Source of the DNA: Chloroflexota bacterium | GTDB taxonomy: Bacteria > Chloroflexota > Dormibacteria > CF-121 | Direction of reading: 5' to 3' | NCBI GenBank assembly: GCA_005880615.1 | Contig: VBID01000141.1 | Location: 1 to 52,169, forward strand | DNA length: 52,169 nt | Part shown: in pieces, positions 2,471-50,728 of the stretch | How positions within the stretch are numbered: position 1 is the first letter of the stretch | How the letters are laid out: the number at the start of each line of letters is the position of its first letter | Program-made: the position numbers and the translations under genes | Notes under the pieces: generated by a model | What the model was told of the DNA's origin: nothing | What the model saw: the letters and a program-made list of their open reading frames with translations, nothing else | The model's database searches: none

Positions 2471-3630
2471 GCCGCGCGGCGTTCCGGCCCGCCCTGGCCA
2501 CTCTCGCCGGCCCGGCGGTCTGGGAAGACCCGTGACAGCTCCGGTGGGATCGGCACGCCGGCGGCGAACAGCTTGTCCATGATGTGCGGCCGGATCCCGG
2601 TGGGACGGAACACGCCTTTGATGTTGCCCTGCTTGTCCACCCCATGGGACTCGAACAGGAAGATCTCTTGCATGGTGATGGTGTCGCCTTCCATGCCGGT
2701 GATCTCGGTGATGCTGGTGACCTTGCGACCGCCGTCCCGCATCCGGGACAGCTGGACGATCAGGTCGACGGCGGAGGCCACCTGCTGCCGGATGGCCCGC
2801 ATGGGGAGGTCGATGCCGGCCATCAGCACCATCGTCTCCAGCCGGGACAGCGCATCGCGAGTGCTGTTGGCATGGAGGGTGGTCAACGATCCATCGTGGC
2901 CGGTGTTCATGGCCTGCAACATGTCCAGGGCCTCGCCGGCACGACACTCGCCAACCACGATCCGATCGGGGCGCATACGGAGGGAGTTGATGACCAGGTC
3001 GCGGATGGCGACCCGATGCTCCCCGTTGAGGTCGGGCGGCCGCGATTCCATGCGGCAGACGTGCTCCTGATGGAGCTGGAGCTCGGCCGCATCCTCAATG
3101 GTCACGATCCGTTCGTCCGTCGGGATGAACGACGAGCAGACGTTGAGCAGGGTGGTCTTCCCGGTACCGGTCCCGCCCGAGATGAGCAGGTTGGCGCGGG
3201 CCATGACGCAGGCTTTCAGGAAGCCGACCGCCTCCGGGCTGATGGTGCCAAAGTTGACCAGGTCCTCGGCCTGATACGGGTCCCGCGAGAACTTTCGGAT
3301 GGTCAGCATGGGGCCGTCGAGGGCAATCGGGGCAATGACGGCGTTCACCCGGGAGCCGTCCAGCAACCGGGCATCGACCATCGGGGTGCGGAAGTCGATC
3401 CGCCGGCCGACCGCGGAGACGATGAAGTCGATGACCCGCAGCAGGTGGTTCTCATCGTCGAACTTCCGGTCCGTGAGCAGGATCTTGCCGGCCCGTTCGA
3501 CGTAGATGTTTTCGGGTCCGTTGACCATGACTTCGGTCAGACTCTGGTCGAGAACGAGGTCGCGGATGGGGCCCAGCGCGTCGTAATAGCGCTGCAGCTC
3601 ATCGTGCGAAACCTCCGAGGCGTTGACCAT
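2467..3630 (-). CDS. CpaF/TadA-type secretion/pilus ATPase (first paralogue)
   Basis: MVNASEVSHDELQRYYDALGPIRDLVLDQSLTEVMVNGPENIYVE...ISGGTGTGKTTLLNVCSSFIP...RPDRIVVGECRAGEALDMLQAMNTGHDGSLTTLHANS; start chosen at the ATG overlapping the comF stop rather than the longer ORF. Confidence 0.9.
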   Translation of the reverse strand: MVNASEVSHDELQRYYDALGPIRDLVLDQSLTEVMVNGPENIYVERAGKILLTDRKFDDENHLLRVIDFIVSAVGRRIDFRTPMVDARLLDGSRVNAVIAPIALDGPMLTIRKFSRDPYQAEDLVNFGTISPEAVGFLKACVMARANLLISGGTGTGKTTLLNVCSSFIPTDERIVTIEDAAELQLHQEHVCRMESRPPDLNGEHRVAIRDLVINSLRMRPDRIVVGECRAGEALDMLQAMNTGHDGSLTTLHANSTRDALSRLETMVLMAGIDLPMRAIRQQVASAVDLIVQLSRMRDGGRKVTSITEITGMEGDTITMQEIFLFESHGVDKQGNIKGVFRPTGIRPHIMDKLFAAGVPIPPELSRVFPDRRAGESGQGGPERRAA

Positions 3631-6580: not shown

Positions 6581-8011
6581 CTAGGCGCCTCCTTTTCCGG
6601 CGGGATCCGGCACCGGCTTGAACAAGTCCTTGGACACGCCCTCGCCGGACGATTGCATGTGGTCGAAATACTTGGGCATAATGCCGGTGGGCGTGAAGTA
6701 GCCCTGCACCCTGCCGTCTTCGCCTACGCCGGTTTGCTTGAACACAAAAATGTCCTGCGTTTTAATCTGGTCGCCGTGCAGTCCGATGACTTCACTGATG
6801 GCGATGACCTTTCGCTGACCATCTCGAAGGCGGCTCTGCTGCACGATGACGTTTATGGCGGAGCTGATCTGCTCCCGGATGGCCCGAGACGGCAACTCGG
6901 CTCCCGCCATTAACACCAACGTTTCCAGGCGGTTCAAACTGTCATGTGGCGAGTTGGCGTGGATGGTCGTTAACGATCCGTCATGACCGGTGTTCATGGC
7001 CTGGAGCATGTCCAGGGCCTCGCCCCCGCGACACTCGCCGACCACGATCCGATCTGGCCGCATACGAAGGGCGTTGACGACCAGGTCGCGGATCGCGATC
7101 CGCCCCCGGCCCTCGACGTTGGCGGGTCGTGACTCAAGTGTTACAACGTGGTCCTGGTTCAGCTGGAGCTCGGCCGCGTCCTCCACGGTCACGATCCGCT
7201 CTTCCTCCGGGATGAAACTGGAGAGGACGTTGAGGGTGGTGGTCTTGCCGGAGCCGGTCCCTCCGGAGACCAGGATGTTCAGGCGGGACCGCACGGCGGC
7301 CCGGCAGAAATTCGCCATGGGCTCGGTGATCGTCCCGAATTTGATCAGGTCGTTGATCATGTAGGGCGTTTTGGAGAACTTCCGGATGGTCAGGATGGCG
7401 CCGTTCAACGCCAGCGGCGGGATGATGACATTGACACGGGACCCGTCCTTGAGCCGAGCGTCCACCATGGGCGAGCTCTCATCGATCCGCCGGCCGATGG
7501 TGGACACGATCCGATCGATGACTCGGCGCAGCTGCGAATCACTTTCGAACTGGATGCTGCTCAGGGTGAGCTTGCCCTTCTGTTCGACGAACACCTGGTT
7601 GGGGCCGTTCACCATGATTTCGGTGATGGCCGGATCATTCACCAGCGACTCGATGGGGCCCAGCCCCAGGAAGTCGTGCAGCACGGAGTCCTGCAGCTTC
7701 TGCTTTTCGAGCTTGGTCATGGTCAGCCCCAGCTCGGCCACCACGGCATCGAGCAGCTCCACGATGCGGGCGGCCGTCTCGTCCTGGCTCTGCTCCTCGG
7801 TCTGGTCGATCTCCTCGATCAGGCGGGCCTGGAGTCGGACCTTGACGCGCTCCGTGGTCTGCTCGAAGGGAGTCCGGGGCCGAGCCGACGCCGTATTCAT
7901 CCGGCCCTGCGGGGGCCGGGCCGCCGCCTGGCCGGCCTGGGGCACGTAGGCCCCTTCCGGCAGGCTGGGGTCGGGCCCCTGCTGCTTCTGAACCCGATCC
8001 AGGAGGGACAC
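6581..8011 (-). CDS. cpaF: CpaF/TadA-type pilus ATPase (second paralogue)
   Basis: DPAITEIMVNGPNQVFVEQKGKLTLSSIQFE...VSGGTGSGKTTTLNVLSSFIPEEERIVTVEDAAELQLNQDHVVTLE...VGECRGGEALDMLQAMNTGHDGSLTTIHANSPHD. Confidence 0.93.
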   Translation of the reverse strand: MSLLDRVQKQQGPDPSLPEGAYVPQAGQAAARPPQGRMNTASARPRTPFEQTTERVKVRLQARLIEEIDQTEEQSQDETAARIVELLDAVVAELGLTMTKLEKQKLQDSVLHDFLGLGPIESLVNDPAITEIMVNGPNQVFVEQKGKLTLSSIQFESDSQLRRVIDRIVSTIGRRIDESSPMVDARLKDGSRVNVIIPPLALNGAILTIRKFSKTPYMINDLIKFGTITEPMANFCRAAVRSRLNILVSGGTGSGKTTTLNVLSSFIPEEERIVTVEDAAELQLNQDHVVTLESRPANVEGRGRIAIRDLVVNALRMRPDRIVVGECRGGEALDMLQAMNTGHDGSLTTIHANSPHDSLNRLETLVLMAGAELPSRAIREQISSAINVIVQQSRLRDGQRKVIAISEVIGLHGDQIKTQDIFVFKQTGVGEDGRVQGYFTPTGIMPKYFDHMQSSGEGVSKDLFKPVPDPAGKGGA

Positions 8012-15517: not shown

Positions 15518-16812
15518 GGCACTGGTACGGGATCCGGCTGCTCTTCCGGCCGAAGGCGCGCCAGGGCATCGAACGGCTGGTGCTGATCCTGGTGATCGGC
15601 TACTACGTCTTCTACTCCGTCTCCCAGTGGGTCACCCTCACGCCGGGCGATTTGCGCTTCGACTTCCAGAACTACTTCGGCGGGGCGGTGGCCGCGGCGC
15701 ACCACACCAATGTCTACGGCGACTTCGAACGTCTGTGGGGAACGCACGCCTGGACAGTGGCCTACATCTACCCCCCGTTGTTCGCCCTGTCGCTTGCCCC
15801 CCTGACTCCGCTGGGGCTGCTCTGGGCGGGACGCGTCTGGCTGCTGGTGGTGCACGCGGCGTTCGTGGCATCGCTCTGGCTCATCCTGCGCATCAACCCC
15901 GAGCTGACCCCGGCCGCCCGGCGGCTGTTCCTGATCGCGGCCTTCATCTTCATGCCGGTCTACCTCACCCTCCACTTCCAGCAAGTGGCCAGCCTCTGGC
16001 TGCTGCTGCTGACCGCCACCTTGTGGGCCGCCCTCCGCGGGCACCATCGCGCCGCGGGGATCACGCTGGCGCTGGCCGCCTCCCTGAAAGTGGTGCCCAT
16101 CTTCCTCATCCCGCTGTTCGCACGCCTCGGTCGGTGGGCGACCGTGGCCTGGGCGACGGCCGCCCTGTGCGCCATTACCGCGCTCACCATGCTGGCCTCG
16201 CCCGGCAGCCTCGATTTCTTCACGGTGGTCCTCCCCCGGCTGAGCCTGGGGAATGCCAACTGGGACAACGGGTCGATCAACGGCCTCATCAGCCGTACGG
16301 TCGACCTCTTCCCCGGCGTGTTCGGCAGCCAGACGGCGCGGGTGGCGGCCGCCCTCATCAGCGCCAGCGTGGTGATCGTGGTCGGCATCACGCTCTGGCA
16401 GGCGGGCCGAGCCGGACGCGACCCCTGGCAGCTGCGGCTCAACGTGGCGGCGCTCCTGGTCGCGCTCTTGATCGTGTCCAGCGTCACCTGGCAGCACCAC
16501 CTGGTCACCCTGCTGCTGCCGCTGGCGGTGGCCATGGCCTGGATCATCGAGCGACGCCCGGGACGCCGCTACGCGGTCTCACTGGCCGCCGGCTACCTCC
16601 TGTGCTGGCTCGACCGCCGGGCTTTCCCGCTCCCCGCCGATGGGGTAGCCCACTCGACGCTGCAGGCCGTTGGCATCCTGGCCGGAACCTCGGTCAAGCT
16701 CTGCGGCCTGCTGACCTTCTGGATCGTGCTCCTCCTGATGCTGCGGCACGAGCGCCGGCTGGCGCTCACGCGGCTTCGTACAGCCGCGGTCTCGCTGCCG
16801 CCCGCCGCTTGA
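15514..16812 (+). CDS. GT87/DUF2029-like multi-TM glycosyltransferase
   Basis: FDFQNYFGGAVAAAHHTNVYGDFE...YIYPPLFALSLAPLTPLGLLWAGRVW...ITLALAASLKVVPIFLIPLFARLGRWATVAW...NWDNGSINGLISR. Confidence 0.82.
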   Translation: MRHWYGIRLLFRPKARQGIERLVLILVIGYYVFYSVSQWVTLTPGDLRFDFQNYFGGAVAAAHHTNVYGDFERLWGTHAWTVAYIYPPLFALSLAPLTPLGLLWAGRVWLLVVHAAFVASLWLILRINPELTPAARRLFLIAAFIFMPVYLTLHFQQVASLWLLLLTATLWAALRGHHRAAGITLALAASLKVVPIFLIPLFARLGRWATVAWATAALCAITALTMLASPGSLDFFTVVLPRLSLGNANWDNGSINGLISRTVDLFPGVFGSQTARVAAALISASVVIVVGITLWQAGRAGRDPWQLRLNVAALLVALLIVSSVTWQHHLVTLLLPLAVAMAWIIERRPGRRYAVSLAAGYLLCWLDRRAFPLPADGVAHSTLQAVGILAGTSVKLCGLLTFWIVLLLMLRHERRLALTRLRTAAVSLPPAA

Positions 16813-18103
16813 AGTCGATCAGGTACCAGCCCAGCACGCCGGTGAGCGCCAGCGCTCCGGCGCTGACCGGCAGGCCGTGAAGGTCGACGACCCATCCCAC
16901 CTGCAAGATCACCAGTCCGGCGACCGGCGACCGCAGGCGCCCCTGGCGATGCAACACAAACGCCGCCCAGGCGGGGACGAGGAGCAGCACCATATCGTGC
17001 GGCAGCGTGTGGGGGGACCCCAGCAGCGCCAGGCAGCCGGCCAGCCCCGCAAACGGGAGCAGGTCCGTCCGCCGGCGGGCCAAGCCCGGATCCACCGATC
17101 GGGCGCCGCAGATCGGGATGCGGGGCGTGCCGAGCCGAAGGAGGCGACGAGCACGCGAGGGAGCGCACCCGTCGGTGCGTGACCGAACGCGCGCAGGAGA
17201 CGACGCCCGGATCGGCCGGATCCGCGCCCGAGATGCTAGCTCGACTCGGTGGATCCGGGCTAAGACTGGGAGCACGATCAGGGTCGCCCCGAAGAGGCCC
17301 AGCCCCGCGATCATGGCGAGCCGGGGCGGCAGCCCCAGCGCCAGCAGGCCGGCCCAGCTATCCATGGAACGCAGATCGGCCCAGGCACTGCCGGCCAGCA
17401 TGCCCCGCACCATGGCCGCTATTCCCGACGGTCCCCCGGCCAGCAAGGCCGAGCAGCCGACCAGGAGGCCGCCGGCGATGACTGCCACCAGCGCGCGACG
17501 GCAGCGACCGGCCCACAGCAGCACCAGGTAGGCCGGCAGGTACTGTGGCTTGAAAGCCAGTAACACCCCGCCCAGGAAGCCCCAGCCGGCGACGTCACGA
17601 TCGGCGGCGGCGAGCACCGCGACGGCGCCGACCAGCAGCACGCCGCCGAGCTGTCCTTCGGTCAACAGGGCCCACGTCGGCTCGGCCGCCAGAACCGCGA
17701 GCAGCCCGAAGGGGACCGCCGCCGGGCCCAGCGGATGAAGGCGGTTGAGGATGAAGACGGCGGCGGCTAGCAGGAGCAGGATCAGGAGCTGCCAGACGCG
17801 AAACGCCGCCTGCAGCGGCAGCAGCGTGAGCGGCACCAGCGGTAGCGCGTCGGCCAGCGGATAGTCAAACGGCAGGGTGGGGTCGATGTGTCCATCGGAC
17901 ACCTGGAGCAAGGCCGGCCCCATTTTCGCCTGGTCGTACACCGCCGCCAGCTGTCCGTGGCGGACGAGGGTAGCGGCCGTGTACAGGACCGTGAAGTCCG
18001 AGTTTTGCACGGCCGCCGCTCCCGCACGCACGCTGAGGACGACAGGCACCAGGGCGAAGCCGGCCAGCACGCCCACCAGCCACCTTCGCCGGCGACGGCT
18101 CAC
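16766..18103 (-). CDS. GT87/DUF2029-like multi-TM glycosyltransferase carrying a 60-codon repeat-derived insertion
   Basis: NSDFTVLYTAATLVRHGQLAAVYD...; GVLLAFKPQYLPAYLVLLWAG; the segment RIHRVELASRARIRPIRASSPARV...RSVDPGLA is repeat-encoded. Confidence 0.8.
   Translation of the reverse strand: MSRRRRRWLVGVLAGFALVPVVLSVRAGAAAVQNSDFTVLYTAATLVRHGQLAAVYDQAKMGPALLQVSDGHIDPTLPFDYPLADALPLVPLTLLPLQAAFRVWQLLILLLLAAAVFILNRLHPLGPAAVPFGLLAVLAAEPTWALLTEGQLGGVLLVGAVAVLAAADRDVAGWGFLGGVLLAFKPQYLPAYLVLLWAGRCRRALVAVIAGGLLVGCSALLAGGPSGIAAMVRGMLAGSAWADLRSMDSWAGLLALGLPPRLAMIAGLGLFGATLIVLPVLARIHRVELASRARIRPIRASSPARVRSRTDGCAPSRARRLLRLGTPRIPICGARSVDPGLARRRTDLLPFAGLAGCLALLGSPHTLPHDMVLLLVPAWAAFVLHRQGRLRSPVAGLVILQVGWVVDLHGLPVSAGALALTGVLGWYLIDFKRRAAARPRLYEAA
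17083..17261 (+). repeat. Interspersed element copy B (179 bp), in frame inside the GT87-like ORF
   Basis: Perfect 16-bp terminal inverted repeats AGCCCGGATCCACCGA / TCGGTGGATCCGGGCT; internal sequence nearly collinear with copy A. Confidence 0.92.
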
Positions 18104-32979: not shown

Positions 32980-34145
32980 CCGCGCAGCGCCTCCTGGTAC
33001 ACACGCACCGTCGCTTCCCCCAGCCGCCGCGGCGTGTACTGCCGCGCCCGGGCGAGGCCGCGCTGGCGCAGCGCGTCGCGGTCCGGGGCAAAGCGCAGCA
33101 GACGCTCGATGGCCTGGGTCAGCTCCGCCGGGTCGGCGGTCTGCAGGACCACGCCGGCATTCCCCACCAACTCCGCCAGGGCGCCGGCGGACGACACGAT
33201 GACCGGAGCGCCGCATGCCATGGCCTCCAGCACCGGCAGCCCGAAGCCCTCGTAGCGGGATGGGTAGACAAAGGCGGAGGCTCCCGCGTACAGTGCCGGC
33301 AGGTCTTCGCGCGGCACGTACCCCAGCATGATCACATGGCCCCGCTTGGGCTGGCGACCCAGCCGCTGCGCCAGGCGTTCTGCCCCATAGGCAGTGCGCC
33401 CCGCAAACACCAAGGCCACGTCCGCACAGTCGGGCGGCAGCAGGTCATAGGCGGCCCGCAACCGGCTGAGGTCCTTGCGGGAATCGATGGTGCCCACCGA
33501 AAGCACGTACCGCTCCGGCAGCCGGTAGCGCTTGCGCGTCTGTACCACCACGTCGGCGGGCGGCGCAACGAAGAACGCTTCCGCGCACAGCGGGATGGCG
33601 GTCACCCGATCGGCATCGACGCCAAAGAGGTCGATGACCTGCCGCCGTACCGCTTCCGATGACACCATCACCCGCCGCGCCCGGCGGATGCTGGCCGGCA
33701 CCAGGGTGCCGAAGTACAGGCGAGCTCTAGGATGAAGATCCTGGGGGGACAAACGAAACGTGAGATCCGGGACCGTCACCACCAGCGGGATATCGCACAG
33801 GATCGGAGCCACCCCGGTCACCGCGTGCAGCAGCCCGTAGCCCCGCGGATGGCGACCGAAGCGCCAGGGCACCATCCATTGCTCCCATCCCAGCCGGAGT
33901 GGCCGCGGCGGCGTAGGAAACGGCACCAGCCGGTGGCTCCGCGCGTCGAGAGCGATGGCCGGGGCGACCTGGCGGCTGACCCACACATCGACCGGCCACC
34001 CCACCTCCGCGAGTCCCCGCAGGATGTGCAGGGCATGATGGTCCAGGCCGGTGAATGGGGGCGCCGCGAACAGGAGATCGATGGCGACCCGGTCATCAAC
34101 CGCCGCCGCCGCGTCTGGCGAGACGGCGGCAGCCTCGCGCATCAT
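32976..34145 (-). CDS. GT4 family glycosyltransferase
   Basis: RYVLSVGTIDSRKDLSRLRAAYDLL...LGYVPREDLPALYAGASAFVYPSRYEGFGLPVLEAMACGAPVIVSSAGALAELVGNAGVVLQ. Confidence 0.92.
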   Translation of the reverse strand: MMREAAAVSPDAAAAVDDRVAIDLLFAAPPFTGLDHHALHILRGLAEVGWPVDVWVSRQVAPAIALDARSHRLVPFPTPPRPLRLGWEQWMVPWRFGRHPRGYGLLHAVTGVAPILCDIPLVVTVPDLTFRLSPQDLHPRARLYFGTLVPASIRRARRVMVSSEAVRRQVIDLFGVDADRVTAIPLCAEAFFVAPPADVVVQTRKRYRLPERYVLSVGTIDSRKDLSRLRAAYDLLPPDCADVALVFAGRTAYGAERLAQRLGRQPKRGHVIMLGYVPREDLPALYAGASAFVYPSRYEGFGLPVLEAMACGAPVIVSSAGALAELVGNAGVVLQTADPAELTQAIERLLRFAPDRDALRQRGLARARQYTPRRLGEATVRVYQEALRG

Positions 34146-34150
34146 GACTG

Positions 34151-35236
34151 GTGATGTTACTGGCTCTTGATGCGAGCCCGGCTGTGCGCCCGAATCCTTC
34201 GGGGACCGAAGTCTATGCGCGGGAGATCATCACCCACCTGGCCCGTACCAATCGCGGCCACACGATGCGCCTCTACGCCAACACAGCGTCGCCGCCCGCG
34301 TGGTCACCCGCCAACGTCGAGTGGCGCCTCCTGCCATTCCCGCGACTGTGGACCCACTGGCGGTTTCGTCGCGCCCTGCGAGCCGAGCAGCCGGATGTGG
34401 TCTTCGTGCCCAGCCACGTGCTGCCCTTGTTCCTGGACCTGCCGGCGGTGGTCACCATCCATGATGTCGGTCACCGCCACGTCCCGTCGGCCTACCGCCC
34501 GGCGGCGTGGCTGTATCTGGAGTGGATGACCCGCTCCATGGCCCGTCGGGCCGCCCGCCTGATCGCGGTCTCACAGGCGACGGCCGATGATCTGCGCCGC
34601 TTCTACCGCGTGTCCCCTGAGCGAATCGCGGTGATTCATTCCGGGGTTGATGAGACCTTTCGGCCTCCGACCACCAATGAGATGGCTCGAGTGCGAGATC
34701 GGTACGGACTCCCATCCGCCTATTTCCTGTACCTGGGGCGCGCGCATCCACGGAAGAATCTGCCACTCCTGCTGGCCGCCTTCCAGGCCGCCCGGCGGAG
34801 CGGGTTGACGGCGGGGCTGGTGCTCGCCGGACCGAGCCACCAGCCGTCGGCCGGCGATGGCGTTCAGGTGCTCGGGTACGTGCCGCGGGAAGATCTTCCC
34901 GCCCTGTATGGCGGGGCGCTGGCGCTGACCCTGCCCTCCCTCTTCGAAGGCTTCGGCTTCGAGGTGCTGGAAGCGATGCGCTGCGGCACCGCGGTGCTGG
35001 CCTCCACGGCCGGGTCGCTGCCAGAGATCGCCGGCCAGGCGGCGCTGCTGGCCGACCCCCACCAGGTTCCCCCGTGGACGGCGGCCCTGCGTCGGCTGGC
35101 CACCGAGGTCCCCCTGCGCCAGCAGCTCATCCAGCGCGGGGCAGCGTGGAGCGCCGGGTTCAGCTGGGAACGGGCGGCGTCGCAGACGTGGACGGTGCTG
35201 GAGACGGCCGGCCGGCCGCCTCACGATAGATCCTGA
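34151..35236 (+). CDS. GT4 family glycosyltransferase
   Basis: FLYLGRAHPRKNLPLLLAAFQAAR...LGYVPREDLPALYGGALALTLPSLFEGFGFEVLEAMRCGTAVLASTAGSLPEIAGQAALL. Confidence 0.92.
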   Translation: MMLLALDASPAVRPNPSGTEVYAREIITHLARTNRGHTMRLYANTASPPAWSPANVEWRLLPFPRLWTHWRFRRALRAEQPDVVFVPSHVLPLFLDLPAVVTIHDVGHRHVPSAYRPAAWLYLEWMTRSMARRAARLIAVSQATADDLRRFYRVSPERIAVIHSGVDETFRPPTTNEMARVRDRYGLPSAYFLYLGRAHPRKNLPLLLAAFQAARRSGLTAGLVLAGPSHQPSAGDGVQVLGYVPREDLPALYGGALALTLPSLFEGFGFEVLEAMRCGTAVLASTAGSLPEIAGQAALLADPHQVPPWTAALRRLATEVPLRQQLIQRGAAWSAGFSWERAASQTWTVLETAGRPPHDRS

Positions 35237-46724: not shown

Positions 46725-46928
46725 TCATTGATAGCGTTTCCAGCGCGCGAACAGGCCCCCTGCAGCCGCCGCGATGCCCGCCAGCAGCCCAAGGAAGAGG
46801 AAGAACGGCGAGGTCCGCAGGATCGCGTCGAGTGCCAGCCCGGCCAGGAACGGCACGATGAATGCCGCCGCCAGGAAAAGACCCAGGCCCCCCAGCTCAG
46901 CCCCCGTGGGACCGCGGTTGCCTGCCAT
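46725..46928 (-). CDS. AtpZ/AtpI family protein
   Basis: MAGNRGPTGAELGGLGLFLAAAFIVPFLAGLALDAILRTSPFFLFLGLLAGIAAAAGGLFARWKRYQ; two TM segments; start of the atp operon. Confidence 0.75.
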   Translation of the reverse strand: MAGNRGPTGAELGGLGLFLAAAFIVPFLAGLALDAILRTSPFFLFLGLLAGIAAAAGGLFARWKRYQ

Positions 46929-47064
46929 CACGGGCTCCGCCGGCTGTCTGGCGACGCCGGACAGGCGGGCAGCCGGGCGGCCATCAACCGCTGCAAGGTG
47001 GGCTCTCAACCGACTTCAAGCTTAGCATCGGCTGAATTTGCGCCGCAATCAAGCAGCCAGCTGA

Positions 47065-47242
47065 AGCCCGAATCCACCGAGTCGAACTTGCATCTTGGGC
47101 GCGGGGCGAGCGAGCGGGCCGTCGTCTCCTGCGCCCGCTCGGTCATGCATCGACGGATGCACTCCCTCGCGTGCTCGTCGCCTCCTACCGCTCATCTCGC
47201 CGCGCATCCCAATCTGCGTCGTCCGATCGGTGGATCCGGGCT
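47065..47242 (-). repeat. Interspersed element copy C (178 bp), inverted relative to copy A; overlaps the 3' end of the WecA-like gene
   Basis: AGCCCGAATCCACCGA...TCGGTGGATCCGGGCT; contains the CGTC-loop hairpin (47146-47161). Confidence 0.88.
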
Positions 47243-48303
47243 GATCGACGCCGCCAGCGACGCAGGAAAATGACCGCGATCCCCAGCAGCAGCAGGACAA
47301 TGGCGCCCTGCAGCACTCGGTGGTGGCCGTAGACCGTCAGGCCGACGGCGGCGAAAATCGCCGTCCCGAAGTAAAAGGTGAGGGCGGTCTCCCGAGGGCT
47401 CAGCCCAAAGTCGAGCAACCGGTGGTGGAGGTGCTCCGCATCGGCTTCGGCGATGGACCGGCCCCGCAGCCTGCGCCGGACGATGGCCCAGGCGGTGTCC
47501 AGGATGGGGATGATGAGCGCCAGGATTGGAACGGCCAGGGAGAAGACCACCGCCCCCTTGGCCACCGACAGCACCGAGATCGCCGCCAGCGCGAAGCCCA
47601 GAAAGTGGCTGCCCGCATCCCCCATGAACACCCGGGCCGGGTGCCAGTTGAAAAGCAGGAAGCCGACGCAGGCGCCTATCAGCGCTCCGGCCAGGATCAC
47701 GATGTCCCATTTCTGCTGGGTGATGGCGGCCAACAGGATGGTGCCGGCCACGATGGCCACCACCCCCGCGGCCAGGCCATCCACCCCATCCAGCAGGTTG
47801 ATTGTGTTCTGCAGCGCGACGAACCAGAAGAGCGTCACCGGGATGGCGACCCACCCCGGGAAGGTAATGACCCCAAGACCCGGCAGCGCGATGAACCCGA
47901 TGGTGAAGACCGGGTTAAACGCCAGGATGAAGAACAGCGACACCCCGACTTGCAGCCCCAACTTGGGCAGCGGTCGCAGCCGCCGCAGGTCGTCGAAGAT
48001 CATCACCGTGGTGATGGCGGCCGAGCCCAGCAACAGGCCGAGCGTGTCGGGATGGGTGGAGAAGATGGCGGCGGCGATGCCGAAGCCGACGTACATGGCG
48101 ATCCCACCCAGCCGGGCGGTCGGCTGGCTGTGGATGTCGCGCTCGCCGGGGTGCGCGACCGCGCCCAACCGGAAGGCCAGCCAGCGTGCCGGCAGGATGG
48201 CGATGGCAGTGGCCACCAGGGCGGCCAGGAAGGGTAGGACGGCCGGCCCGAACTTCTCCGGCGTGAAGCCGAGGACGCGATCGAGCTGAGACTCTAACAG
48301 CAC
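47185..48303 (-). CDS. WecA/TagO/MraY family undecaprenyl-phosphate sugar-1-phosphate transferase with a repeat-derived C-terminus
   Basis: HSQPTARLGGIAMYVGFG...MIFDDLRRLRPLPKL...NTINLLDGVDGLAAGV...FNWHPARVFMGDAGSHFLGFALAA...AEHLHHRLLDFGLSPRE; tail ARIHRSDDADWDARRDER is encoded by repeat copy C. Confidence 0.92.
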   Translation of the reverse strand: MLLESQLDRVLGFTPEKFGPAVLPFLAALVATAIAILPARWLAFRLGAVAHPGERDIHSQPTARLGGIAMYVGFGIAAAIFSTHPDTLGLLLGSAAITTVMIFDDLRRLRPLPKLGLQVGVSLFFILAFNPVFTIGFIALPGLGVITFPGWVAIPVTLFWFVALQNTINLLDGVDGLAAGVVAIVAGTILLAAITQQKWDIVILAGALIGACVGFLLFNWHPARVFMGDAGSHFLGFALAAISVLSVAKGAVVFSLAVPILALIIPILDTAWAIVRRRLRGRSIAEADAEHLHHRLLDFGLSPRETALTFYFGTAIFAAVGLTVYGHHRVLQGAIVLLLLGIAVIFLRRWRRRSARIHRSDDADWDARRDER

Positions 48304-48323
48304 CGCGCCGAAAGTTTAGAAGA

Positions 48324-48427
48324 AGCCCGGATCGATCGAGCGGACGATGCGGATTGGGATGCGGGCGTGCCGAGCCTCAGGCCGCATCCGCGCCCCAGAT
48401 GCGCGTTCGCTTCGGTCGATTCGGGCT
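48324..48427 (+). repeat. Interspersed element copy D (104 bp, internally deleted), between glyA and the WecA-like gene
   Basis: AGCCCGGATCGATCGAGCGGACGATGCGGATTGGGATGCGGGCGTGCCGAGC joined to CTCAGGCCGCATCCGCGCCCCAGATGCGCG...GATTCGGGCT; the central hairpin region is missing. Confidence 0.85.
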
Positions 48428-48430
48428 TTA

Positions 48431-49690
48431 TTAGTACGGGAGCGGAAAGCGCTCGCAGAGGGCGCGGCTGCGCCGGCGGACGTCATCGTGGACGCCGGGG
48501 TCTTCCAGGTGTGTGATCAGGGTCGCCACCAGGTCCGCGATCTCCCCCATCTCCCCCTCCCCCATCCCCCGGGTGGTGACCGACGGCGACCCCAGCCGGA
48601 TGCCGCTGGGGTTGAACTTGCTGGCGGTGTCGAAGGGGATGCTGTTGCGGTTGACCGTGATCCCCACCGTGTCGAAGATCTCCTGCACCCGCTTGCCGGT
48701 CAGCCCCAGCGGGCGGAGGTCGATCAGCATCAAGTGGTTATCGGTGCCCCCGCTGATCAGCCGGAGCCCGCGCCGGGTCAGGCCATCGGCGAGTGTGCGG
48801 GCGTTGGCCACGACCCGCTGCGCGTAGTCCTTGAACTCGGGCGTGCGCCATTGCGCCAGCATCACGGCTTTGGCCGCCACCCCGTGGTTGTGTGGGCCAC
48901 CCTGGCTGCCGGGAAAGACGCTCTTGTCCAGCTCGGCCGCGTGGGCCGCCTTGCACAGGATCATCCCGCCCCACGGGCCGCGCATGGTCTTATGCGTGGT
49001 GAAGCTTACGAAGTCGGCATGGGCAACCGGACTGGGGTGCGCCCCGCCCGCCACCAGGCCGGCGAAGTGGGCCATGTCCACGAAGAAATAGGCGTCCACG
49101 GATTTGGCGATCGCGGCCATGCGGGCGAAGTCCAGGATGCGCGGGTAGGCGCTGTAGCCGCCCAGCAGCATCTTGGGCCGCACCTCCTGCACCTGCCGCT
49201 CGAGCACGTCGTAGTCGATGCGCTCGGTCTTGGGATCGACGCCATAGGCCACGAAGTGATAGAGCTTGCCCGAGAAGTTGACCGGGCTGCCATGGCTGAG
49301 ATGGCCGCCGTGACTCAGGTCCATCCCCATCACGGTGTCGCCCGGCTGCAGGACGGTGGCATAGACGGCGTAGTTCGCGGTGGTCCCGCAATGGGGCTGT
49401 ACGTTGGCATGGTCGGCCCCGAAGAGCGCCTTGGCCCGATCGATGGCCAGCGTCTCGATCCGATCGACGTTCTGGCAGCCGCCATAGTAGCGCTTGCCGG
49501 GATAGCCCTCGGCGTATTTGTTGTTGAGGAGCGATCCCAGCGCCTGCAGCACGGCCGGGCTGGCGATGTTCTCGGACGGAATCAGCTCCAGTGTGTACTG
49601 CTGCCGATCGAACTCATCGCGGATCGCCTGCCCCACCTCGGGATCGACCTCGTCAATCTTGCTTGTCAGATCGCGGGCAACCTGGACCAT
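48431..49690 (-). CDS. glyA: Serine hydroxymethyltransferase
   Basis: ELIPSENIASPAVLQALGSLLNNKYAEGYPGKRYYGGCQNVDRIETLAIDRAKALFGADHANVQPHCGTTANYAVYATVLQPGD...FVSFTTHKTMRGPWGGMI. Confidence 0.97.
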   Translation of the reverse strand: MVQVARDLTSKIDEVDPEVGQAIRDEFDRQQYTLELIPSENIASPAVLQALGSLLNNKYAEGYPGKRYYGGCQNVDRIETLAIDRAKALFGADHANVQPHCGTTANYAVYATVLQPGDTVMGMDLSHGGHLSHGSPVNFSGKLYHFVAYGVDPKTERIDYDVLERQVQEVRPKMLLGGYSAYPRILDFARMAAIAKSVDAYFFVDMAHFAGLVAGGAHPSPVAHADFVSFTTHKTMRGPWGGMILCKAAHAAELDKSVFPGSQGGPHNHGVAAKAVMLAQWRTPEFKDYAQRVVANARTLADGLTRRGLRLISGGTDNHLMLIDLRPLGLTGKRVQEIFDTVGITVNRNSIPFDTASKFNPSGIRLGSPSVTTRGMGEGEMGEIADLVATLITHLEDPGVHDDVRRRSRALCERFPLPY

Positions 49691-49720
49691 GCCAGAGATT
49701 ATCCGGGATCGGCCGCGCCA

Positions 49721-50127
49721 AGCCCGGATCTACCGGTCGGGCGCCGCAGATCGGGATGCGGGGCGTGCCGCGCCGAAGGAGGCGACGAGCACGCGAGGGA
49801 GCGCACCCGTCGGTGCGTGACCGAACGCGCGCAGGAGACGACGCCCGGAGCCCGGGGCCGTCGGACGAACGAGGCAGATTGGGATGCGGGGCGTGCCGAG
49901 CCGCAGGAGGCGACGAGCACGCGAGGGAGCGCACCCGTCGATGCGTGACCGAGTGCGCGCAGGAGACGACGCCCGGATCGGCCGCATCCGCGCCCAAGAT
50001 GCGAGTTTGTTCCGGCGGCCCCGGGCTCAGGCCGCATCCGCGCCCGAGATGCGAGTTTGTTCCGGCGGCCCCGGGCTCAGGCCGCATCCGCGCCCGAGAT
50101 GCTAGCTCGATCCGGTGGATTCGGGCT
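49721..50127 (+). repeat. Interspersed element composite copy E: interrupted outer copy E1 containing complete copy E2 (49849-50027)
   Basis: E1-left 49721-49848; E2 179 bp with its own TIR variant AGCCCGGGGCCG...CGGCCCCGGGCT; extra 50-bp right module 50028-50077; E1-right 50078-50127. Confidence 0.85.
49981..50127 (+). repeat. 50-bp tandem repeat (about 2.9 units) within composite copy E
   Basis: GCCGCATCCGCGCCC(A/G)AGATGCGAGTTTGTTCCGGCGGCCCCGGGCTCAG starting at 49981 and 50031, with a diverged third unit from 50081. Confidence 0.9.
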
Positions 50128-50728
50128 TTAATCTAGGAATCAGGTCGGCCGCCGGAATGAGACCCTGCCGGAGGATGCGCGGCTCGGTCCCGCTCAGGTC
50201 GAGGATGGTGGACGGCTGTCCGTTGGCCGGCCCGCCGTCAAGGATCAGGTCGAGCTCCTGGGCGAAGGCCGCCTCCACCGACCCGGCGTCCGCCGGCGGT
50301 GGCGCGCCCGCGTAGTTGGCGCTGCTGCTGGCGATCGGCTCCGTCAAGCCGCGGAGGAGCTCCAGGGCCACCGGGTGCTCCGGCGCCCGAAACGCCAGGG
50401 TGGAGCCCCCGGCACCCACGATGGGGGCCCCCGGGCGGCGCATCAGGACCAGGGTCAGCGCCCCGGGCCAGTAGCGGGTCATCAAGTCCTCCGCCTGGGG
50501 CGTGACGATCGCCCACTCCGGCACCTGGGTGGCGTCGGCCACCAGCAACACGACCGGCTGGTCGGCCGGCCGACGCTTGATCGCGTAGAGGCGGCGCACC
50601 GCCGAGGGATCGCGGGCCCGAGCTCCGATGGCGTACAGCGTGTCGGTCGGGAAGGCAATCACCGCGCCCTGGAGGAGCCGGCTGATGGCCTGGTTGATGT
50701 AAGGAGGCTCCGCGGGCCAGCGCACCAT
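50102..50728 (-). CDS. Sua5/YciO/YrdC/YwlC family protein (threonylcarbamoyl-AMP synthase-like)
   Basis: INQAISRLLQGAVIAFPTDTLYAIGARARDPSAVRRLYAIKRRPADQPVVLLVADATQV...YWPGALTLVLMR...FRAPEHPVALELLRG...SSSANYAGAPPP; tail KPESTGSS is repeat-encoded. Confidence 0.9.
   Translation of the reverse strand: MVRWPAEPPYINQAISRLLQGAVIAFPTDTLYAIGARARDPSAVRRLYAIKRRPADQPVVLLVADATQVPEWAIVTPQAEDLMTRYWPGALTLVLMRRPGAPIVGAGGSTLAFRAPEHPVALELLRGLTEPIASSSANYAGAPPPADAGSVEAAFAQELDLILDGGPANGQPSTILDLSGTEPRILRQGLIPAADLIPRLKPESTGSS

Follow-up and report, generated by a model that had tools for sequence, protein, structure and literature searches.

ERIC, an enterobacterial repeat, is about 127 nt in size. Protein C-termini written by small repeats are already known from BOX, QMITE, RPE and ERIC elements. 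In Streptococcus pneumoniae, 58 genes overlap BOX, and 36 get their 3′ stop codon from the repeat (PMC3049150). QMITE1 and QMITE2 of Coxiella burnetii are MITEs that overlap functional genes at their 3′ ends, by 1–50 bp; in one Coxiella strain, the last 33 residues of the enhC product are QMITE2-encoded (PMC5896051). The RPEs of Rickettsia are palindromic mobile repeats of ∼150 nt, which lie in frame in unrelated genes and are translated (PMC10969869, PMC2229807). More generally, bacterial MITEs often have open frames fused to genes (PMC2229807).

Here, we analyzed one window, the whole 52,169-nt stretch of a contig from the draft assembly of a Chloroflexota bacterium, in which a transferase gene runs into a repeat. 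Gene calls near the elements were taken from a codon-usage script. A limited literature search found no earlier description of the element family, which appears to be undescribed. Found outside the bacteria that usually serve as models, it adds a well-documented example of short mobile repeats that write C-termini: within a single genome, it accounts for six tails and an in-frame insertion. It also reveals a class-wide hairpin family with a conserved apex.

The WecA/TagO-like gene ends within the repeat

The WecA/TagO-like transferase gene (47185–48303, minus strand) encodes 372 aa, starts with GTG and ends at a TAG inside the repeat. Its product matches Pfam PF00953 (Glycos_transf_4, E = 6e-37, domain 88–246) and carries the conserved motifs NLLDGVDG, HPARxFMGD and HLHHRL; 59 of the 61 relatives searched match the gene, some of the matches being paralogues. 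Judged by domain and motifs, the host ORF is a true Glycos_transf_4 family gene. The repeat, copy C (47065–47242, minus strand), is a full element of 178 nt, AGCCCGG...TTCGGGCT, and forms one long imperfect hairpin. The translated C-terminus reads ...FLRRWRRRS-ARIHRSDDADWDARRDER-TAG. Position 47242, the first base of copy C, is the A of the serine codon TCA, and the TAG (47187–47185) is within the element; the repeat-encoded 3′ end (47185–47242, minus strand) is thus composed of the last base of TCA, the 18 codons of ARIHRSDDADWDARRDER and TAG, and 58 nt of the gene, including 18 full codons, derive from copy C. The preliminary description had assigned the last ∼18 residues to the repeat; frame and coordinates agree exactly with that assignment, as does the finding that orthologues in the sister genus g4 have neither repeat nor tail.

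Orthologue C-termini and the original stop codon

Ten orthologues from this one sister genus, 68–73% identical in tblastn, end in RRFRRTSRG* or close variants, with the stop 3 codons past the RRxRR motif, directly after the last membrane helix. No repeat is present downstream of these ten genes, and their products have no 18-residue tail. In a third genus (L020), the C-terminus is RFSRRNGRD*; the orthologue of genome G002 (L021) has an extension unrelated to ARIHRSDDADWDARRDER, and more distant orthologues carry other short tails, whose sequence and length differ between genera. A repeat-free orthologue with the same C-terminus, which would have contradicted the preliminary description, was looked for and not found among any of these. 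Because orthologues without the repeat do not share this C-terminus, the 18-residue tail is, on this sequence comparison, specific to the source lineage. The comparison covers the sister genus and other genera; a search of genome contigs for close relatives returned distant actinobacterial matches only and no same-genus empty site.

We also noticed that in two g4 loci (L010 and L012), TGA-GCCCGGTTCGGGC stands straight after the wecA stop, exactly at the position of the element in the window. GCCCGGTTCGGGC is a short palindrome resembling fused element ends; it may be a footprint or a coincidence.

Copy C, AGCCC...GGGCT, is flanked by GATC on one side and by TCAGCTGG on the other. Exact removal of the element in silico gives ...RRRSQLAA-TGA, with the TGA (47049–47051, minus strand) 16 nt past the junction and in frame; if TCA is counted as the duplicated target, the frame continues for 79 nt to a stop. 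This TGA may plausibly be the old stop codon, which would then have been displaced, not destroyed. The earlier suggestion that the element replaced the original stop and gave the enzyme a charged tail therefore stands for the tail, but its first part has to be reworded to ‘replaced or displaced’, owing to the TGA 16 nt on.

Structure and target of the repeat element

Over its 178 nt, copy C is 85–92% identical to a dozen full copies (E down to 7e-70), well above what chance would give. An iterated profile search (nhmmer) over stretches of the source genome gave 89 matches in 53 blocks; 50 of these are full-length, ∼179 nt when the flanking A and T are counted. The element is MITE-like, ∼177 nt in length (177–180 nt), present in >50 copies in the source genome, and contains no gene of its own. 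Its ends, GCCCGGATCCACCG and CGGTGGATTCGGGC (GCCCGG..CGGGC), form terminal inverted repeats with compensatory changes in pairing. The bases flanking the ends are T/T in 16 cases, A/A in 10 and T/A in none. A 3-nt TWA duplication is exact in 11 cases versus 4.5 expected, a number that none of 2000 shuffles reached; in copy C, the duplication is imperfect (TCA/TTC). Because the sites prefer C-T-(A/T) 5′ of the element (CTA/CTT flanks), we take CTWAG as the insertion target. By these features, namely short length (the class limit being <200–500 nt), non-autonomy, inverted ends and target duplication, the element is MITE-like in the broad bacterial sense of PMC2229807.

Across 46 copies, the entire element is one hairpin, with 61 consensus pairs and 98% of cells paired. 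Nineteen pairs are changed on both sides, and sliding the partner by 1–3 columns lowers the paired fraction to 24–41%. In all 46 copies, which share ancestry, the strand as oriented here gives the more stable fold, with a mean of -110 versus -94.5 kcal/mol. On the plus-strand fold, G.T outnumbers A.C by 270 to 15, whereas the column counts are balanced when the two folds are taken together (20 versus 16); with moderate confidence, the strand preference rests on the energy comparison, not on these counts. The copies also include nested forms and arrays, the latter composed of repeated 128-nt units (1–129), one full copy and repeated 50-nt right arms (132–179). The minus frames are nearly stop-free (44–45 of 46 copies); as the copies share ancestry, selection for open reading frames in the element is not claimed.

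Being palindromic, multicopy and intergenic near gene 3′ ends, with tandem composite arrays, the repeat also invites comparison with REP/BIME sequences moved by a RAYT (Y1 transposase) in place of a MITE. We regard such an identity as very improbable and rejected it: the genome contains no Y1_Tnp (PF01797), although the control search was positive; the element makes a 3-nt duplication; and the unit is a ∼177-nt hairpin, far longer than REP, rather than a 20–40 nt palindrome with a GTAG/CGTC-type tag. Solo short hairpins of the element ends were considered as a separate REP family and dismissed, the genome holding one for the pattern sought. A known structured RNA was ruled out as well, since positions 46900–50300 of the window have no Rfam match at E ≤ 1. 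As to the mobilizing enzyme, no transposase with ends matching the element was found in the draft genome; the three DDE_Tnp_1 loci present there were considered as a candidate IS5-type parent transposon and provisionally set aside, none having matching ends.

Other copies in the window

Two further full elements lie on the plus strand. Copy A (1450–1629) provides, with its 3′ end, the last base of the TAA stop of the neighbouring gene. Copy B (17083–17262) is inserted in frame, over ∼60 codons, in a GT87-like gene (16766–18076, minus strand), whose orthologues are continuous without the insertion; residues ∼274–333 of the product are a complete element. Between wecA and glyA, there is an internal-deletion derivative (48324–48428, plus strand) made of left arm and right arm without the core; the glyA stop is 3 nt away from it. 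A modular array (49721–50127, plus strand) contains one 128-nt unit, one full element and two 50-nt right-arm units. Most Sua5 orthologues are ∼198 residues long, with ELIRG* or a related sequence as C-terminus; the Sua5/YrdC gene of the window (50102–50728, minus strand) ends in the array, and its last ∼8 residues, KPESTGSS, and TAG come from the array's right arm.

In the glyA–Sua5 gap, where the window has this array, genome G002 carries the same core in an element whose arms are unrelated (L134:178–356), and g4 has no element. The shared site may be a hot spot hit by separate insertions, or it may hold a single old element whose arms have changed. Two other repeats were observed in the window: direct repeats at 2866–3464 and 6953–7551 (71–81% identity, 4087-nt spacing), which are probably duplicated genes, and a 49-nt inverted repeat at 33280–33328 and 34869–34917 (80% complementary, 1.5 kb apart).

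Effect of the element on gene ends

In 24 of 52 blocks, the stop codon of a gene is formed where the element ends or immediately next to that point (TA|A, T|AG); 16 of the junction stop codons are at offset -1 and 7 at -2. Because the CTWAG target alone, in a G+C-rich genome, brings 8 of 33 uninserted sites into contact with a stop codon, target choice may explain most of this pattern, and the excess over the target preference is suggestive only. Six genes read deeper into the element, those for the WecA-like protein, Sua5, a methyltransferase, TMEM164, DUF1684 and a cupin. All six are Pfam-supported, with domains that end ahead of the element-encoded tails, which are 7–18 residues long. In the usual copy, the frame used by the WecA-like gene would add 32 residues and stop at nt 100. 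All three genes using this frame sit on early-stop copies, compared with 6 of 50 copies overall (P ∼0.001, post hoc), which suggests that the early stops reflect selection for short tails.

These observations bear on whether the read-through is real. Should the junction TCA be a base-call or assembly error for TAA or TGA, the enzyme would end there. TCA is one base away from either stop, the g4 orthologues have TGA-GCCCGG where the window has TCA-GCCCGG, and most copies by gene 3′ ends abut a stop formed at the junction, as the -1 and -2 offsets indicate. Against an error, the other five genes of the source genome also read into the element, and only stop-bearing copies are used in the WecA-like frame, as expected of translated tails; we consider the error unlikely.

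Properties of the added tail

The tail ARIHRSDDADWDARRDER is charged, with six Arg/His and seven Asp/Glu. In an AlphaFold2 model built with 28 orthologues (mean pLDDT 83), the last helix continues through the tail at pLDDT 72–76. We assume the topology of the WecA-like family, in which the HLHHRL loop is cytoplasmic and is followed by two more helices and then by RRWRRR; with RRWRRR standing after the last membrane helix, the 18 residues are probably cytoplasmic. The mean codon score is -0.25 for the tail and +0.50 for the gene body, and such a difference from host genes is expected because the sequence would have been added recently. Since the WecA-like C-terminus varies so freely among relatives, the added tail is most likely tolerated and near-neutral.

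The element could instead have been recruited, either as a functional charged cytoplasmic tail or as a hairpin regulating the mRNA. The helix prolonged by the charged tail in the model, the overlap of the hairpin with the 3′ end of the gene and the shortening of the tail by the early stop would all fit an adaptive role. However, the tail codons are unlike host coding sequence, unrelated proteins also carry this peptide, and the C-termini differ among orthologues, so that we find recruitment quite improbable.

We instead favour, with a probability of roughly 85%, insertion of a mobile hairpin that added a near-neutral 18-residue tail to the WecA-like enzyme, where the repeat identity, the frame, the lack of the tail in orthologues and the recurrence in other genes are shown, and the mobility in trans, the location of the tail and its neutrality are what we infer. 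In the source lineage, the 3′ end of the gene would have received a non-autonomous MITE-like hairpin (∼177 nt, with a further 3 nt from the TWA duplication), presumably mobilized by a transposase acting in trans. Translation would then pass the old protein end into the left arm of the element and stop at the TAG carried 56–58 nt into copy C. The predicted outcome is an 18-residue charged, probably cytoplasmic tail past the last membrane helix, with the catalytic part untouched.

A core conserved across the class

The apex of copy C contains a 67-nt core (47120–47186, minus strand) that is shared by 53 of the 110 genomes in this class. It is weaker in one further family of the phylum (f21), and elsewhere a few short scattered matches were obtained. 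In other genera, the hairpins that carry the same core have markedly different arms and ends, for example AGTGTCCCG..CGGGACACT, AGGGTCGTGCGCGGG..CCCGCGCGCGACCCT and GCAGCCTGTCCCGG..CCGGGACAGGCTGC. Compensatory changes are observed at 9 of 17 consensus pairs of the core hairpin. On the core-oriented strand, the arms pair more stably at 35 of 38 loci, including loci with unrelated arms, suggesting that it is one strand that folds, either as RNA or as single-stranded DNA.

Tentatively, as one possibility that we rate below even odds, the core may function as a module that folds as a single strand, RNA or ssDNA, and has been kept class-wide, while the arms are terminal repeats that are exchanged or diverge freely. 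If so, this would be a mobile-hairpin family defined by its apex, not by its ends, and its mover would be an enzyme not yet known; at stop sites of the form CTWAG/CTAG, the hairpins would seed protein tails as well as stop codons. For a MITE derived from a transposon, one would expect the opposite of a conserved apex with variable ends, so that what moves these hairpins becomes a testable question.

Comparison with known repeats

By description, the element resembles BOX, whose hairpin repeats are modular (A-B-C) with variable tandem middle units (PMC3049150). However, the sequences appear unrelated, and the present element forms a single long hairpin over its full length, with tandem units of 128 and 50 nt. 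Compared to the QMITEs, it differs in sequence and occurs in another phylum, and a class-wide conserved core is not among the features described in the available part of PMC5896051. Like the RPEs, again compared by description, it is inserted in frame in a conserved gene, for which GT87, with ∼60 codons, is the one clear case. Different from the RPEs, which encode a conserved peptide within genes, most copies here are intergenic and the tails are read in several frames. The enterobacterial ERIC/IRU elements are also intergenic long stem-loops, with a TA-type target, a target duplication and open frames (PMC2229807). Whereas their target is TA, the present element targets CTWAG and duplicates TWA, and between genera its arms diverge while its core stays.
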